From: a bacterium
GTDB taxonomy: Bacteria; Zixibacteria; MSB-5A5; GN15; FEB-12
Reading direction: 5' to 3'
Assembly: GCA_029211095.1 (NCBI GenBank)
Contig: JARGFS010000014.1
Coordinates: forward strand, 1 to 36,914
DNA: 36,914 bases
Translations under genes and position numbers: made by a program
Part shown: one piece after another, positions 3,171 through 13,090 of the stretch
Numbering within the stretch: position 1 is the stretch's first letter
Layout: the number at the start of each line of letters is the position of its first letter
The notes under the pieces: generated by a model
What the model saw: only the letters and a program-made list of their open reading frames with translations
Databases searched by the model: none
Told to the model about the DNA's origin: nothing

Positions 3171-4052
3171 ATGACAATCAGGACAGCCAAAAGGACGGAA
3201 TCAGCAACAAAGGGGATTTGCCTCAGTGATGGACGGGTCTTGAGTTTGGCCAAACCGCTGGTTATGGGCATTCTCAACATTACTCCGGACTCTTTTTCTG
3301 ATGGCGGCCGGTTTAATTCGATCGACCGGGCGCTGGAGCAAGCCCTGCTGATGGTATCGGAGGGGGCGGACCTGATTGATGTAGGGGGAGAGTCGAGTCG
3401 ACCCGGAGCCGATCCGGTACCTTTGGAAGTGGAACTGGAGCGGGTTATTCCGCTGGTTGAGTCTATCCGGGCCAAGTCCGACATCCCGATCTCAATTGAT
3501 ACTTACAAAGCCGAAGTAGCCGGCGCGGCACTCAAGGCCGGGGCTGACATTATCAACGATATCTCCGCTATGAGATTTGATCCCGGAATGGTCACTCTGG
3601 TCCAGGCCACAGTCGTACCGGTGATACTCATGCATATGTTGGGCAAGCCCAAAGATATGCAGCAGAACCCGGTCTATACAGACTGCGTGGGGGAGATAGC
3701 TGAATTTTTCCGGGAAAGAATTGAGTTCTGTCAGTCAAGTGGAATAGAGCCTGATCGACTGATAATTGATCCCGGAATCGGCTTTGGCAAGCGACTTCAC
3801 GATAACCTGGCTATTCTTTCAGGCATAGATCAGCTTGCCCGGACAGGATTGCCAATTTTGATTGGGGCTTCGCGAAAATCATTTATCGGTCAGTTGACTC
3901 CTGGTGGGGGGAACGCCTCGGAGCGGTTGGGTGGCTCTATTGCTGCCGCCACTGTGGCAATTCTGGGCGGGGCCGATATTATTAGAGTACATGATGTCCG
4001 GGAAACTGTGGAAGCAATCAGTCTGATTAACGCCCTTAAGGAAACAAAATGA
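3171..4052 (+). CDS. folP: Dihydropteroate synthase
   Basis: A 293-residue TIM-barrel enzyme that condenses 6-hydroxymethyl-dihydropterin pyrophosphate with p-aminobenzoate to dihydropteroate in folate synthesis; it is the sulfonamide target. The DHPS signatures are all present: MGILNITPDSFSDGG near the N-terminus, DVGGESSRPGADPV, SIDTYKAEV, INDISA, LMHMLGKPKDMQ, IIDPGIGFGK and LIGASRKSFIG. About 25 residues precede the first barrel strand, which is usual. The ATG at 3171 has GGAG five bases upstream. The stop codon overlaps the cdaA start in ATGA (4049-4052), so the two are probably translationally coupled, as in many bacteria where folP precedes the diadenylate cyclase gene. Confidence 0.95.
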   Translation: MTIRTAKRTESATKGICLSDGRVLSLAKPLVMGILNITPDSFSDGGRFNSIDRALEQALLMVSEGADLIDVGGESSRPGADPVPLEVELERVIPLVESIRAKSDIPISIDTYKAEVAGAALKAGADIINDISAMRFDPGMVTLVQATVVPVILMHMLGKPKDMQQNPVYTDCVGEIAEFFRERIEFCQSSGIEPDRLIIDPGIGFGKRLHDNLAILSGIDQLARTGLPILIGASRKSFIGQLTPGGGNASERLGGSIAAATVAILGGADIIRVHDVRETVEAISLINALKETK

Positions 4053-4810
4053 CCCTCATTGAATATGATTTTATCAGCTTTGGGCTGAAAGATATTGTCG
4101 ATATCCTGATAGTATCGTTCATATTCTTTCAGTTGCTCAAACTGATGCAGGGTACAAGATCGGCTCAGATCATAATCGGACTTTTTTCTCTGGCACTGGT
4201 TGCTTTTGTTTCTTACTGGTTTCAGTTGGAAGGTTTGGCCTGGCTCTTTTCCAATCTGGCCACATTTGGACTGATTGTGCTTGTCATAGTGTTCCAGCCG
4301 GAACTGCGCGGAATGCTGGCCCAATTTGGACAGAGCCGTATCTTCAATCGCATGTTTGCGGCGGAGCAGCGTCGCTCTATTGAGGAGATATCCAGAGCCG
4401 CCCTCAGGCTGGCCGAACTCAGGTATGGCGGACTGATTGTAATAGAGCGCCAGACAGGACTTCGTAATTTTGCTGAATCCGGCAAAGAATTGAATGCCGA
4501 GTTGTCTTCGGAACTGCTGGTTACCCTCTTCACTCCTTACACCCCGCTCCATGATGGCGCTGTCATAGTCTCTGGAGATCATATTGTGGCGGCGGCGGCA
4601 TCGCTCCCACTGACCATAAACCTCAGATACTCCAAACTGTTTGGAATGCGCCATAAAGCGGCGGTCGGGGTTTCGGAAGTCTCCGACGCGGTCGTGATTG
4701 TGGTCTCAGAAGAGACGAGCCAGTTGTCGATAGCTTATGACGGCATTCTTCACGGCAAAATCAAGACCAACGAATTCCGCGAACATCTGGCCCAGTACCT
4801 GAACCGCTGA
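4049..4810 (+). CDS. cdaA: Membrane diadenylate cyclase CdaA (c-di-AMP synthase)
   Basis: A 253-residue CdaA/DacA-type enzyme that makes cyclic di-AMP from two ATP. Two or three hydrophobic N-terminal helices (about residues 13-31, 38-58 and 70-82) are followed by the DAC domain. The catalytic DGA motif is seen in PLHDGAVIV (169-171). The second motif, usually G-T-R-H-R-A-A, is here G-M-R-H-K-A-A (199-205), so the last Arg of RHR is Lys. VFQPELRGML before the cyclase domain is a family hallmark. It overlaps folP by 4 nt. No cdaR (YbbR) or glmM gene follows, unlike Firmicutes operons; a terminator lies downstream. Confidence 0.93.
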   Translation: MTLIEYDFISFGLKDIVDILIVSFIFFQLLKLMQGTRSAQIIIGLFSLALVAFVSYWFQLEGLAWLFSNLATFGLIVLVIVFQPELRGMLAQFGQSRIFNRMFAAEQRRSIEEISRAALRLAELRYGGLIVIERQTGLRNFAESGKELNAELSSELLVTLFTPYTPLHDGAVIVSGDHIVAAAASLPLTINLRYSKLFGMRHKAAVGVSEVSDAVVIVVSEETSQLSIAYDGILHGKIKTNEFREHLAQYLNR

Positions 4811-6869: not shown

Positions 6870-8132
6870 ATGAAGCAAATTTCAATAGTTGTCGCACTTC
6901 TGATCTTGCTTGCCACCAGTTCCCGGTCGGCTTCGCTGCTGATCCCTATGGATGAGACGCAGACCGATCACCTTAAAGCTTACGGCGTGGTTTTCCAGGC
7001 TTTGGCCAATGGGGAGAAATCCCAGTGGCTGCTGAACTATCGGGGCGGCTCCTTCCTAACTGACATTTCCGAGCGGACCATAAACAAGTGTCTCGTGATG
7101 GGAGTTACCTACGAGCGAGTCAGTGCCGGGCAGGTGGCGGATATTTTCCGGAGGATCGAAGTCGAGAATATGGAGCGGGTGGAATTGGAAAAGGCTCCGG
7201 CTATTGCCGTCTATTCTCCGCCATCCATGCAGCCGTGGGATGATGCGGTCACCCTGGCCCTTACGTATGCCGAGATCAAATACGATGTTATCTGGGATAA
7301 AGAGGTGCTATCGTCTGCGCTTGATGACTATGACTGGCTGCATTGCCATCACGAAGATTTCACCGGGCAGTACGGCAAGTTCTATGCTGCGTTTCGCAAT
7401 CAACTCTGGTACCAGGCGGATGTGAAGACCAACGAAGAGATGGCGGCCAGCCTTGGTTACAACAAAGTCTCCCAGATGAAACGGGATGTAGCGCTCACAA
7501 TTTATGATTTTGTGCGGCGGGGCGGCTTTCTGTTCTCGATGTGTTCGGCGCCGGAAACAATTGATATCGCCCTGGCGGCCAAAGATGTTGATATCGTCCC
7601 GCGGGAGTTCGATGGCGACCCTATTGATCCGGGAGCCCAGCAGGCCCTTGACTATAGTGGGACTTTCGCCTTTGAGAATTTCCATGTCACCACCGACCCC
7701 ATGCTCTACCGGCACAGCGATATCGACACCTACCCGGATCGTCTGGCTCGCTTTCCCGGACAACAGAATGACTTTTTCTACCTCTTCGACTTTGCCGCCA
7801 AGCTTGACCCCGTACCTACCATGTTGACCCAGAACCATGTGAATACGGTCGATGCTTTCATGGGGCAGTCGACCGGGTTTAGAAAATCACTGCTCCGGAA
7901 ATCAGTTATCGCCCTGGGTCAGCCGGACAATTTTGACGAGGTACGCTATATTCATGGAAATATCGGGCGGGGGACTTTCACTTTCCTCTCCGGTCATGAT
8001 CCCGAAGACTACCAGCACATGGTTCACGATCCGCCGACTGATCTCTCTTTGCACAAAAACTCGCCCGGATATCGCCTCTTGCTCAACAATGTGCTCTTTC
8101 CGGCGGCCAAGCGAAAAGAACGTAAGACATGA
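6870..8132 (+). CDS. Secreted protein of unknown function, 'asparagine synthetase B-like' family with GATase-like fold
   Basis: A 420-residue protein with a signal peptide (residues 1 to ~21, hydrophobic VVALLILLAT then SRSAS) and no later membrane segment, so probably periplasmic or exported. The mature start LLIPMDETQTDHLKAYG and WLLNYRGGSFLTD (residues 53-65) match, from memory, a Bacteroidota family often named 'asparagine synthetase B' in databases. I see neither an N-terminal glutaminase Cys nor an ATP-pyrophosphatase motif, so that name should not be taken as function. The middle has DYDWLHCHHEDF (153-164) and GGFLFSMCSAPETID (218-232). Cys225 sits in a strand-turn-helix context like the nucleophile elbow of class-I glutamine-amidotransferase or ThuA-like folds. 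It lies alone between lepA and ruvX. Exported status is a good inference; the reaction is unknown. Confidence 0.75.
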   Translation: MKQISIVVALLILLATSSRSASLLIPMDETQTDHLKAYGVVFQALANGEKSQWLLNYRGGSFLTDISERTINKCLVMGVTYERVSAGQVADIFRRIEVENMERVELEKAPAIAVYSPPSMQPWDDAVTLALTYAEIKYDVIWDKEVLSSALDDYDWLHCHHEDFTGQYGKFYAAFRNQLWYQADVKTNEEMAASLGYNKVSQMKRDVALTIYDFVRRGGFLFSMCSAPETIDIALAAKDVDIVPREFDGDPIDPGAQQALDYSGTFAFENFHVTTDPMLYRHSDIDTYPDRLARFPGQQNDFFYLFDFAAKLDPVPTMLTQNHVNTVDAFMGQSTGFRKSLLRKSVIALGQPDNFDEVRYIHGNIGRGTFTFLSGHDPEDYQHMVHDPPTDLSLHKNSPGYRLLLNNVLFPAAKRKERKT

Positions 8133-9647: not shown

Positions 9648-10199
9648 TCAGTCAATTTTCGATTCTATCAGGCCGGCCAGGGCCGAAGTTTCAGCCAACA
9701 GTTCCTCCCCCACAATCTCCTGAAGGGATTTATTCCGCACGGAGCTGAATCCTATCAGGCCGACTACCTGTTCTCTCGAAGTCAGAGGGATGAGGAGCAT
9801 TGAGGAAGTTGCCTCTTCAAGCAGCAGCTTGCGTTCAAAGAAGTTTCCGGAGAAATTGTTCAGGTTGCCCAGTGTGTAGCGGCGGCCATCTCTGACTACC
9901 TGGTGGAAAAGAGAATTCTCTGACGGAAGGGTCAGGGTTAATCCCGATTTAATTCCACTCTCATCCCAGACCGAGACAACGCCCAGGTCATTGGAACTGT
10001 CGTTTCGAATGACCATAACGCCACGGTTGACCTGGTGCTGATCCGAGAGTCGCCGGGCCAGTTGTTCAAACGAATGCGTTGGATCAATATCTTTAGTGGC
10101 CACCGCACCGGTCGCAGCATCTCCTCCTGGCGATGTATAGCTGGTCTCATTGGCTACGACAGTCTGTCTCGGAAGTTTGCTCATAGATTCGTTGCTCAC
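9648..10199 (-). CDS. Stand-alone GAF-domain protein
   Basis: A 183-residue soluble protein. After a polar, low-complexity N-terminus (~40 residues), a GAF fold follows: HSFEQLARRLSDQH, a strand pair GVMVIRN / LGVVSVWDESG, SLFHQVVRDGRRYTLGNL, SSMLLIPLTSREQVVGLIGFSS, and a final helix ETSALAGLIESKID. GAF domains bind small ligands or mediate protein contacts; no ligand can be assigned. There is no output domain, so it probably acts through a partner. Its start overlaps the stop of the upstream regulator by 4 nt (10196-10199), so it is third in a coupled three-gene unit with a pseudo-kinase and a degenerate enhancer-binding-like protein. I infer an adaptor or sensory role in that set. Confidence 0.8.
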   Translation of the reverse strand: MSNESMSKLPRQTVVANETSYTSPGGDAATGAVATKDIDPTHSFEQLARRLSDQHQVNRGVMVIRNDSSNDLGVVSVWDESGIKSGLTLTLPSENSLFHQVVRDGRRYTLGNLNNFSGNFFERKLLLEEATSSMLLIPLTSREQVVGLIGFSSVRNKSLQEIVGEELLAETSALAGLIESKID

Positions 10200-11593
10200 A
10201 CCGGGCTCTTTTCCGCATCTCTTTTGAGGTTGTATTTTTTGACTTTACGCCAGAGAGTTGTTCGCCCAATCCCCAACTCGTGAGACGTTTGGGTAAAATT
10301 CCAATCATTTTCATCCAGCGCCTTTACAATTAGCTCTTTCTGGCTCTCAGCCAGCTTGCCGCGCGCGATCCCGAGATTGGAATTCTGTCTCTGGCTGACA
10401 AGCTGAGTAACATCAACCGAGGGTGCCAGGGAGCCGAGATCATGAATCTCGATTTGCGAGTTCCGGCAGACGGCTGCGGCCCTGGTAAGAACGGAGATCA
10501 ACTCGCGCACCTGTCCGGGCCAACTGTGATTTCTGAGCGCCTCAATGGCAGCCGGAGAGATGCTTATTGAGGGAGATTCTGATCGAGAGGTTATCCGCCG
10601 CAGGCTGTACTCCACCAGCAGTTCGAGATCATCGATCCTCTCTGAGAGCGAAGGGATAGAGATTGGCAGAACATTGATCTGGTGCCATAACTCCTGACTG
10701 AATGATCCGGATCTGACCGCTTTTTCGAGGTCAATCGTACTTGAAACAAGCAGCCGGAGGTCAATCTTGATCTGGTGGCCGGTTGTTCCCGATGACCAGG
10801 TCATGGTACTCAGAAAGGCAGCCAGTTGCTGTTGCTGCGGAAGACTTAGCAATTCTACATCCTTGATATAGAGCGTTCCACCATCGGCCTGTTCTACGGC
10901 CGATCCGCCGGGAACCGAAGGGCTGGTATCAGAATCAGCTTCGGGCAGCAACGATTGTTCATCATGTTGCGACTTGCAATCATAAGTCACCAACTGTTCA
11001 TGGCGGCGGCGGGAGTGATGATGCAGACTGTGGGCGATCAGGGTCCGCCCGGACCCTTCGGGGCCTTTGAGGAGAATAGTAATTTCTGTTTCGGCCACTT
11101 TGGCGAGGCTGTTTTTTATCTCCTGCATTTTGTCAGTAAGGCCGACGATATTGTCGAATCCAAAAGACATGGCAATCTGGCCTCGGAGCGCAAACAGTTC
11201 GCTTTTCATACTCTGATGCTTTAGAGCCAGTTCTACGGTAGCTTTTAGGTGTGACAAAACCGTCACCACAAACATCAGGTTGCCGATTTGCCCGTCCTGC
11301 CTGCCACTATTTGGAGGAGAACTGTTGGTTGGGAGGAAGTGGACAAATTCCAACTCCGGGTTCTCCTTTCTCAGGATATCAAAGCGCATCAGCAGTTCTT
11401 TGTTTTCGGGCGGGGTGGCCAATACCACCGCAAAATCGCCGGACTTCAGCTTTGTCTCAGCGGCGGAGAGGTCATCACATAGTTCCCATTTGATATTGGT
11501 ATCCTCAAATTGAGTACTGACATTTTTGGCGTTAAGGATGGTTGAGCCGAGAATCAGCACTTTGGTCGCTTTATGATCGGAGGCGGGGTTCAT
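10196..11593 (-). CDS. Degenerate NtrC-like (sigma-54 activator-like) regulator with Fis HTH
   Basis: 465 residues from an ATG at 11593 that overlaps the upstream stop in ATGA; longer in-frame starts would run deep into that gene. Residues ~9-120 resemble a receiver fold, but where the phosphorylatable Asp should be the strand reads DFAVVLATPP. Residues ~145-390 align with the AAA+ domain of NtrC-type activators, starting at FDNIVGLTDKMQEIKNSLAKVA. The P-loop is GPEGSGRT (177-184, Lys to Arg), Walker B is GGTLYIKDVE (Asp-Glu to Lys-Asp), GAFTGA is absent, and the arginine-finger segment is FSQELWHQINV, lacking both Arg of FREDLYYRLNV. WPGQVREL is kept. The C-terminus (~415-455) is an intact Fis-type helix-turn-helix, FTQTSHELGIGRTTLWRKVKKY. 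It should bind DNA but probably cannot drive sigma-54 polymerase by ATP hydrolysis. Confidence 0.85.
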   Translation of the reverse strand: MNPASDHKATKVLILGSTILNAKNVSTQFEDTNIKWELCDDLSAAETKLKSGDFAVVLATPPENKELLMRFDILRKENPELEFVHFLPTNSSPPNSGRQDGQIGNLMFVVTVLSHLKATVELALKHQSMKSELFALRGQIAMSFGFDNIVGLTDKMQEIKNSLAKVAETEITILLKGPEGSGRTLIAHSLHHHSRRRHEQLVTYDCKSQHDEQSLLPEADSDTSPSVPGGSAVEQADGGTLYIKDVELLSLPQQQQLAAFLSTMTWSSGTTGHQIKIDLRLLVSSTIDLEKAVRSGSFSQELWHQINVLPISIPSLSERIDDLELLVEYSLRRITSRSESPSISISPAAIEALRNHSWPGQVRELISVLTRAAAVCRNSQIEIHDLGSLAPSVDVTQLVSQRQNSNLGIARGKLAESQKELIVKALDENDWNFTQTSHELGIGRTTLWRKVKKYNLKRDAEKSPV

Positions 11594-12960
11594 GATGTCG
11601 ATATTTCCTTGAATGTGAGGGTTGTTTCCAATCTGGTCTCTCCATCGGATCGACGGTGTGAGCAGGTACAGATGTGAGTAAAATTCTCCAGCTGTTTGAT
11701 CCATTTCTGGTGGAAGTCAAGCGGCAAGCTGTTTCTGGAGGCTATGGTTGTCATCTTCAGAGAGAGTGGGGAACCGGCGCTAATCTTGATTTCCGTCTGG
11801 AATGGCCGTGTGGGCCGGTCAAGGTGGCCCAAAATGGCTGTTTCCAGAACGGGGAGAATTTCCCCGGTAGTCAACGGTAGAATGAATCCGGAGCCTTCGG
11901 TTTTGATCTGAATCGGGTAGATTGACTCATGGCCGCCAATCAGGTTTCGGACGGCGTTATCTATCGTCACGAGAAGGTTACAGTTCCCTTTGGCCGTCGG
12001 ATATCCGAGCAGTCCGCGTTTGAGACGGGCTAAACAGTGGGAGATTTTCCCGCTCGGTCGAATGACGGTTCTTAGTGAGTCTCTTGTCCCATTGGAGCGG
12101 AGCATGTGCAGAGCGCGCTCAGACTGTTCAATCAGGAACAGTCCGATCTGGTCATCCACCGACTGTTTTTTGGCCGGCAGTTGGATGTTGATGAGGCTGA
12201 TACTCAGATCGTCCTCAGTCAGATTCTCCAGTCGCAGACTCATTCCCTGACTAACGGCCGGGATACTCTCTTTGATCTGGTGGTACTCCCGGTCTAAAAG
12301 CGCATCAACCGGGCAATGGCAGATTTCGGCCGCCCGGTCACTGGCATGGATCACCACTCCTGAGGCACGGTTGATAACTATGACCGCGTCATCCGGTTTT
12401 ATTTTCGTGCTCACCCGTTGGGCAAGAATCTCCGCCGGCCGAAAGGCCTTTCTGAATACATCGACCAGGGAGACAAACAGGTTCTCTCTATAAGGAGGGG
12501 ATATCTCATGGTCCGGTCCCAAAAGACCGAGCGTGAGCGGTTTGTTGCTTCCAGGGTTAATAATTGCAGTTGTAATTTTGTGTCGTTGCTGGCTGCTTCC
12601 CGGTAGTGGCTGGCAGAAGTGGGTGAAGATAGCGCCATTTTGCTGATCGGCAGTCGGGTCGAGAAGGGCCAGGTCAAAGAGGCTGAGATTCTCAGGATGG
12701 AGCCATTTTCCGGATTCAAGGATGAAGGCGATAGAACGGGAAGGGGCCATACGGTCCAGCTGTTCTTTGTCTGGATCGGTAAAGCGACCTCTCAGAAGAT
12801 ATCCCAGCAATAGTGATTCTATTGCGGGTAAACTAATGCTGTTTCTGACCTGAACGCAATCGCTCAAGCGATCATGCCCCAGGACGGTGGTCGAGATTCT
12901 TGATTCAGTTTGAAACTCTGTACTTTTCATCTGTTTACTCGCTGTTTCATTTTGATACAT
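11590..12960 (-). CDS. Histidine-kinase-like sensor (PAS plus degenerate kinase core), probable pseudokinase
   Basis: A 456-residue soluble protein with no signal or TM. Residues ~70-175 look GAF-like by the pattern of strands and the final helix YRENLFVSLVDVFRKAF. Residues ~186-282 are PAS-like (DAVIVINRASGVVIHASDRAAEI). Next comes a helix pair with SGKISHCLARLKRGLLGY (303-320), like a dimerisation/His region with His308, followed by NLLVTIDNAVRNLIGG. The last ~100 residues have the length and strand pattern of a HATPase domain (EILPVLETAILGHL, TEIKIS, RLETTLTF), but the N-box Asn, DxGxG and GxG loops cannot be found. It heads a coupled unit, overlapping the next gene by 4 nt. The start at 12960 is uncertain; ATG at 12930 is an alternative and neither has a clear ribosome site. 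The kinase assignment is by architecture and context, so it is tentative. Confidence 0.65.
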   Translation of the reverse strand: MYQNETASKQMKSTEFQTESRISTTVLGHDRLSDCVQVRNSISLPAIESLLLGYLLRGRFTDPDKEQLDRMAPSRSIAFILESGKWLHPENLSLFDLALLDPTADQQNGAIFTHFCQPLPGSSQQRHKITTAIINPGSNKPLTLGLLGPDHEISPPYRENLFVSLVDVFRKAFRPAEILAQRVSTKIKPDDAVIVINRASGVVIHASDRAAEICHCPVDALLDREYHQIKESIPAVSQGMSLRLENLTEDDLSISLINIQLPAKKQSVDDQIGLFLIEQSERALHMLRSNGTRDSLRTVIRPSGKISHCLARLKRGLLGYPTAKGNCNLLVTIDNAVRNLIGGHESIYPIQIKTEGSGFILPLTTGEILPVLETAILGHLDRPTRPFQTEIKISAGSPLSLKMTTIASRNSLPLDFHQKWIKQLENFTHICTCSHRRSDGETRLETTLTFKEISTS

Positions 12961-13054
12961 CTGATTACTTAATCGGAAGTCGGTCGGATATCTTTAGACG
13001 AATCGGAATAATTGCTGGAATTCCGGTTCCTGACGTGCTCAAATCCCTTTTTGC

Positions 13055-13090
13055 TTGACAGGTAAGCTCAGATGGGATAAGTTTACCTGT
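13055..13090 (+). promoter_or_regulatory. Promoter-like element with 8-bp inverted repeat over the gatC start
   Basis: TTGACA at 13055-13060 is followed by GATAAG at 13076-13081 (15-bp spacer) or TAAGTT at 13078-13083 (17-bp spacer). ACAGGTAA (13058-13065) and TTACCTGT (13083-13090) form a perfect inverted repeat, extendable through G-U to an 11-bp RNA stem with an 11-nt loop. The right arm covers the first two bases of the gatC GTG start (13089). It could be an operator or a start-site hairpin. Confidence 0.5.

Follow-up and report, generated by a model that had tools for sequence, protein, structure and literature searches.

The window analysed here is the whole 36,914-nucleotide contig JARGFS010000014.1 (contig 55 of a 3.06-Mb assembly, completeness 97%), and its host is a Candidatus Zixiibacteriota metagenome-assembled genome (MAG), the relatives of which are recorded under the same name. 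It carries a trio of coupled genes, A, B and C, which encode a protein with a histidine-kinase fold, an NtrC-family protein and a lone GAF protein. A and B have lost their catalytic motifs. On balance, we favor the reading that a system of σ54 activation and phosphotransfer has been turned into a non-catalytic DNA-binding regulator, one that probably represses its own operon at a σ28-type promoter. The genes and their junctions are as follows.

11590..12960, minus strand: gene A, pseudo-histidine kinase with an N-terminal sensor-like domain, a PAS-like domain, a degenerate DHp domain and a degenerate ATPase-fold domain
11590..11593, minus strand: A/B start/stop overlap ATGA, exactly 4 nucleotides
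10196..11593, minus strand: gene B, NtrC-family protein lacking the receiver phosphosite, P-loop Lys, Walker B, GAFTGA loop and arginine fingers; AAA lid and Fis-type helix-turn-helix (HTH) intact
10196..10199, minus strand: B/C start/stop overlap GTGA, exactly 4 nucleotides
9648..10199, minus strand: gene C, stand-alone GAF protein with a GTG start and the family motif FSGNFFE[RQK].LLL

The coordinates and the ATGA and GTGA junctions bear out the original prediction, made from this DNA alone, of three minus-strand genes with a 4-nucleotide overlap at each junction.

Catalytic Motifs of the Trio

Taken alone, A of the window has no Pfam match. The family of A gives weak PAS and HisKA matches and no match to HATPase_c in Pfam. 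The AlphaFold model of A (mean pLDDT 83) consists of a sensor-like domain, a PAS domain, a DHp domain and an ATPase-like domain, that is, a histidine-kinase fold, and its best Foldseek matches in the PDB are WalK, phytochromes, LOV kinases, HK853 and ZraS, and also DivL and RetS. In addition, the A family profile (A1) makes a weak sequence match to solved histidine-kinase chains, with E about 1e-4. A has the kinase fold, and so the first protein does not fall outside the histidine kinases, an outcome that the original prediction had kept in view.

The N-box Asn and the G-boxes, whose loss had been predicted, are absent from A of both the window and G044, the single other sequenced genome of the window genus, and the H-box His is gone from both as well. 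None of the 38 family members that could be scored has the N-box Asn. A continuing role for A in phosphotransfer, as a Spo0B/ChpT-like or phosphatase-like protein, we consider highly improbable: an H-box His (F.H.MRNK) is present in about ten family members, most of them with a receiver Asp, but the window genus has neither the His nor the receiver Asp, and the idea is refuted there by sequence.

B matches Sigma54_activat (PF00158; E 1.2e-24), AAA_lid_14 (3.4e-15) and HTH_8 (PF02954; 3.5e-13) in Pfam, with no match to Response_reg. Alignment with canonical relatives at the same locus upholds each of the losses claimed for it. In the receiver, the acid pair DD is replaced by G and S, the phospho-Asp by T and the Lys by V. 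The P-loop GxxGxGK reads GPEGSGR, the Lys being Arg; Walker B DE reads KD; the GAFTGA loop is deleted; and the arginine fingers R,R are S,Q. The Fis HTH (about residues 414–454) is intact, also as claimed; B keeps the sensor-II Arg, and LGIGRTTLWRKV is intact.

Sequencing or assembly error was considered as the source of these losses and ruled out, because G044, at 67% identity, has all the same substitutions in A and B. Thus, the nearest relative does not retain the motifs, and this strain is not a lone mutant. Between the window and G044, B is most alike in the Fis HTH (89% identity), followed by the linker (88%), the lid (82%) and the AAA core (66%), and least alike in the receiver-like part (45%); between the window and other genera, the receiver-like part has a mean identity of 12%. 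Such uneven constraint would be expected if B is retained for binding DNA and for assembly, not for phosphorylation. σ54 itself remains: rpoN is kept in 51 of the 55 genomes of the GTDB family, including all 30 of the best ones and the window genome. Since RpoN is still present, the change is in B and is not a loss of σ54.

C has a single GAF domain in Pfam, in agreement with its description as a lone GAF protein, and its model shows a compact GAF domain preceded by an unstructured N-terminus. At 4049–4810 of the window (plus strand), a gene for a CdaA-type diadenylate cyclase follows ftsH and folP; cyclic di-AMP is at most a candidate ligand for C.

The Locus and Its Ancestral State

The trio is flanked by pyrG-kdsB-gatC (divergent) and mltG-ruvX (convergent) throughout the GTDB family and in other Zixibacteria. 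Because the flanks are the same, the trio members are taken to be positional orthologues. With the window proteins as queries, B has a match in 55/55 genomes of the family and A in 43; a profile search recovered A in several more, and the order A-B-C is present in nearly all of the fetched loci. In most loci of the family, ruvX is adjacent to a gene for a 420-residue protein with no Pfam match (6870–8132 of the window, plus strand).

In Zixibacteria outside the family, the A homologues match HATPase_c in 9 of the 10 tested, often match HisKA, and have the H-box, N-box and G-boxes. The B homologues there have an intact DD / D / T / K receiver, GK, DE and both arginine fingers. Their loop reads G[AS]FT[SN]A, with strict GAFTGA in L167 and L168. 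Among these outgroup loci, L154–L158, L162 and L165 share one or both flanks with the trio; L167, L168, L170 and L172 have no pyrG or mltG flanks, and their orthology is less certain. Judged by these motifs, the ancestor at the locus is a working two-component system of histidine kinase and response regulator, and the proposed conversion of a real two-component system is thereby strengthened. Three outgroup loci (L167, L168 and L175) have a stand-alone receiver-like open reading frame, encoding 122 residues, directly downstream of B.

Order and Repetition of the Losses

A tree of 61 loci was built using no genes but the flanking pyrG, kdsB, gatC, mltG and ruvX. For each motif, state changes were counted as the Fitch minimum and then as losses with regain disallowed (Dollo), as follows (Fitch, Dollo).

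GAFTGA loop: 10, 13
H-box His: 10, 13
Walker B: 9, 12
Receiver phosphosite: 9, 11
Arginine fingers: 8, 11
P-loop Lys: 4, 4
Kinase N-box: 2, 2

These counts are approximate, since support is weak for the deep branches of the family. Within the family, the loop (as G[AS]FTxA) is kept in 10/48 loci, the phosphosite in 10/47 and the P-loop Lys in 44/48. When loop and phosphosite are compared across 60 loci, both are intact in 17 and both lost in 39; the loop alone is lost in 4 and the phosphosite alone in 0. The motif counts on the tree, and the lack of any locus with the phosphosite lost and the loop intact, point to an order in which the kinase domain went first, loss of σ54 contact preceded or accompanied that of the phosphosite, and the P-loop was the last to go. 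Independent-pair tests of correlated loss run in the same direction and fall short of significance, the pairs being too few (p 0.06 for loop versus arginine fingers). Loss is a graded process repeated across a bacterial family, not one local event. More independent degenerations of the same trio are seen in other Zixibacteria families, at L160, L169, L171, L161 and L150.

The P-loop Lys calls for separate discussion. Its loss is special to the window genus and a few others, and the Lys is present in 56/61 trios. Together with only 4 losses, against 8–12 for Walker B or the arginine fingers, this pattern would suit a nucleotide switch, in which B is a hydrolysis-deficient AAA+ protein that binds ATP and acts at a σ70-family promoter, the window genus simply having an atypical P-loop. 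Rhodobacter capsulatus NtrC indeed requires ATP binding and not hydrolysis (PMC10274813). Yet both species of the window genus have Arg for the Lys, KD for Walker B and neither arginine finger, and we think a nucleotide switch unlikely.

Many independent losses of catalytic motifs, and a receiver-like part that diverges as fast as that of B, might also be left by slow non-functional decay, with each family member eroding a two-component system it does not need. Selection argues otherwise. In close pairs of degenerate trios, the ratio of nonsynonymous to synonymous substitution rates (dN/dS) is 0.21–0.33 for A, 0.12–0.33 for B and 0.09–0.14 for C, values similar to or somewhat above those of mltG and kdsB. 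That is, dN/dS lies far below 1 wherever it is measurable, not near 1 as in pseudogene drift, and purifying selection on the related trios is supported. For the window and G044, pN is 0.20–0.21 and pS 0.74–0.79 (pN and pS being the proportions of nonsynonymous and synonymous differences), which gives a pN/pS of about 0.27. The frames are open and the overlaps coupled in almost all genomes, an argument that the original prediction had made from the window alone; the Fis HTH and linker are strongly conserved within the genus, and the promoter and dyad described below are kept almost everywhere. Decay is therefore disfavored, and we regard it as improbable.

A Predicted σ28-Type Promoter and a Dyad Upstream of A

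Upstream of the trio lie a promoter of σ28 type and a conserved dyad, neither of which was part of the original prediction. The features of this segment are as follows.

12970..12997, minus strand: predicted σ28/FliA-type promoter of the trio, CTAAAG-N15-CCGATT-A
12943..12959, minus strand: imperfect dyad TGTATCA-AAA-TGAAACA, just downstream of the promoter; predicted, probable operator
13045..13061, plus strand: conserved element, CTTGACAG as read on this strand and CTGTCAAG on the other; a probable −35 for the divergent gatC promoter

The element was found through word counts upstream of A, where TGAAACA occurs in 24/30 loci and CTAAAG in 20/30, against at most 7–8 in shuffles. Perfect gapped palindromes in the same segment gave none in common above shuffles; because its left arm is imperfect, the dyad surfaced by word counting only. 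In full, the element is CTAAAG-N15/16-CCGATW, usually 12 nucleotides from CGAT to TGT, and then TGTNTCA-N3-TGAAACA. The promoter part we take to be the σ28/FliA consensus, of TAAA-N16-CCGAT type, at its usual spacing. The same genomes carry T[AT]AAG-N15-CCGATT at the flagellin genes too, where its distance hardly varies; FliA is over its cut-off in 51/55 genomes (in G000, 264.9 bits against a cut-off of 189.6) and flagellin is present in 53/55.

The promoter scores at least 11 of 12 in 39/47 loci, compared with 0/47 when shuffled. In 43/43 promoter-bearing loci, the promoter is followed by a dyad with no more than 2 mismatches, where 0.04 would be expected. The composite of promoter and dyad occurs in 45/55 genomes, once in each, with a reversed-pattern control of 1; it lies at the trio in all of them except G042 and G046, where it is elsewhere, and G001, where it is on another contig. 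By itself, the short pattern TAAAG-N14-16-CCGAT, counted across the window's own genome, shows no excess over the control (24 versus 25). Since the genome count is no higher than the control, only position and conservation are evidence for the promoter.

The dyad also bears on the start of A. The true start is more likely ATG 12930 (MKSTEFQTES...) than ATG 12960, because the latter overlaps the conserved dyad and because relatives start at the homologue of 12930.

Further dyad matches 460–780 bp upstream of flagellin in several genomes lie inside an apparent upstream TPR-like coding sequence (C-Y-F-K-M-K-Q codons) and were rejected as operators. Another 7 one-mismatch dyads elsewhere in the window's own genome have no σ28-type promoter beside them. 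Some loci depart from the usual layout. A small clade (L083, L095 and L073) is without the GAF gene C, mltG coming directly after B, and still keeps the promoter and dyad. G042 (L102) has B without a recognizable A, C or dyad, and G046 (L110) has B and a weak A, with no recognizable C or dyad.

The dyad need not belong to B. Some other flagellar regulator may bind it, or it may act in an RNA leader, in which case B would have its targets elsewhere and the trio would simply be late flagellar (σ28) genes. The near-exclusive location at the trio, in the predicted initially transcribed region, and the conserved mismatch of the left arm are compatible with this, as is the retention of B in G042 and G046 without a recognizable dyad. 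On the other hand, B is the sole DNA-binding protein of the operon, its HTH is, like the dyad, nearly invariant phylum-wide, the fixed bases appear to follow no codon pattern, and the dyad region has no match in Rfam. We judge this alternative to have perhaps one chance in a few.

Proposed Mechanism

The sequences themselves establish the motif losses with their order and repetition, the synteny, the purifying selection in related trios, and the promoter–dyad element with its near-exclusive location; binding of B to the dyad, repression as its sign, contact among A, B and C, ligand input, and any targets beyond the operon are inferred. The starting point would be a vertically inherited Zixibacteria operon encoding an ordinary histidine kinase, a σ54-activating response regulator and a GAF partner. 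The kinase of the family would have lost ATP-dependent autophosphorylation. The response regulator would then repeatedly have lost the σ54-remodeling loop and the ATP-hydrolysis residues, with the phosphosite lost with or after these, and the window genus would additionally have lost the P-loop Lys. Selection would now act on how the operon is coupled, on the kinase-like scaffold and the GAF protein, and, within B, on the linker, lid and Fis DNA-binding domain.

In the present-day trio, a B dimer is proposed to sit, via its Fis HTH, on TGTNTCA-N3-TGAAACA, overlapping the start region of its own σ28-type promoter. Bound B would block or modulate σ28 RNA polymerase without ATP or σ54. A, through its sensor-like and PAS domains, and C, through its GAF domain, may alter DNA binding by B by direct contact upon ligand or partner binding. 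Such a regulator would limit itself and be linked to the late flagellar program.

In its broadest form, the proposal is of a phylum-wide parallel series of losses in a fixed order (kinase ATPase domain; σ54 loop and ATP-hydrolysis residues; phosphosite; P-loop), ending in a catalysis-free, ligand-controlled repressor of a σ28 promoter that is composed of a pseudokinase, a pseudo-bacterial enhancer-binding protein and a GAF protein. This generalization we offer tentatively, as possible and a little short of probable.

Several points weigh against autorepression by a catalysis-free B. No second recurrent dyad target is present in the 55 genomes; therefore, B would regulate little besides itself, unless its other sites are weaker. 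The left arm keeps a conserved mismatch (TGTNTCA, not TGTTTCA), so that the palindrome is imperfect, and another regulator might use the dyad, or it could function at the RNA level. Even without ATPase activity, an AAA+ domain could assemble into rings or take up other nucleotides. In most ancestral-like lineages the loop reads G[AS]FT[SNT]A instead of strict GAFTGA, and their σ54 competence is thus presumptive. For the pair of the window and G044, dS is saturated. Finally, the genome sample consists throughout of MAGs or of single representatives per species.

Relation to Known Regulators and Significance

B fits the pattern of NtrC proteins without GAFTGA, in that the L1 loop is lost and the DNA-binding domain kept. 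It may act at a promoter of the σ70 family; its own operon has a σ28-type promoter with the dyad, a putative B site, at the start region. TyrR is likewise an NtrC-family regulator without σ54 activation; its sensor domains differ and it has no kinase partner. In the sole comparison made with TyrR, B scores 109.6 bits against NF008085, below the cut-off of 576.

VpsR of Vibrio cholerae differs from B in retaining the Asp used for phosphate sensing, and its operon is not known to contain a dead kinase or a GAF gene. VpsR (PDB 7v2b) has no GAFTGA, acts on σ70 promoters and does not need ATP (PMC10274813). Caulobacter NtrC and R. capsulatus NtrC, also GAFTGA-less, are reported to act at σ70-type promoters; the former needs its Walker A and B motifs and the latter ATP binding, and both keep Asp phosphorylation (PMC10274813). 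These two resemble B in family, in deletion of the L1 loop with GAFTGA and in being paired with a kinase. Their kinase works; the trio, by contrast, has a dead kinase and a regulator stripped of phosphosite and ATPase residues, and its operon includes a GAF protein.

FleQ of Pseudomonas aeruginosa has a phosphorylation-incompetent receiver and is σ70-dependent and ATP-independent at some promoters (PMC10723142). It shares with B an NtrC-like architecture, such a receiver and a flagellar context; unlike B, it has an active ATPase, activates σ54 transcription at flagellar promoters, has FleN as a partner and lacks a pseudokinase partner. A parallel for A is DivL, which has a histidine-kinase fold without kinase or phosphatase activity, takes PAS input and signals by binding (PMC4211667). 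Like A, it is a pseudo-histidine kinase, and Foldseek gives it among the matches to A. The response regulator that DivL reads is phosphorylated, in contrast to B, the partner of A, which has no phosphosite.

The description of the trio as an undescribed system thus holds in part. VpsR, FleQ and the NtrC proteins of R. capsulatus and Caulobacter are already known as relatives that lack GAFTGA or cannot be phosphorylated and have roles apart from σ54; in a limited literature search, we found no report of both partners dead in one operon and none on Zixibacteria regulators. Examples of a dead kinase or of an NtrC protein without GAFTGA are known one at a time; in the trio, both partners are dead in one operon.

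Since relatives preserve intermediates at the same locus, they show directly in what order catalysis is lost from a two-component system. If the proposal is true, phosphorylation and ATP hydrolysis would be dispensable together while the circuit stays under selection. The phylum is flagellated and uncultured, and one of its regulators now has a candidate operator together with a σ28-type promoter.

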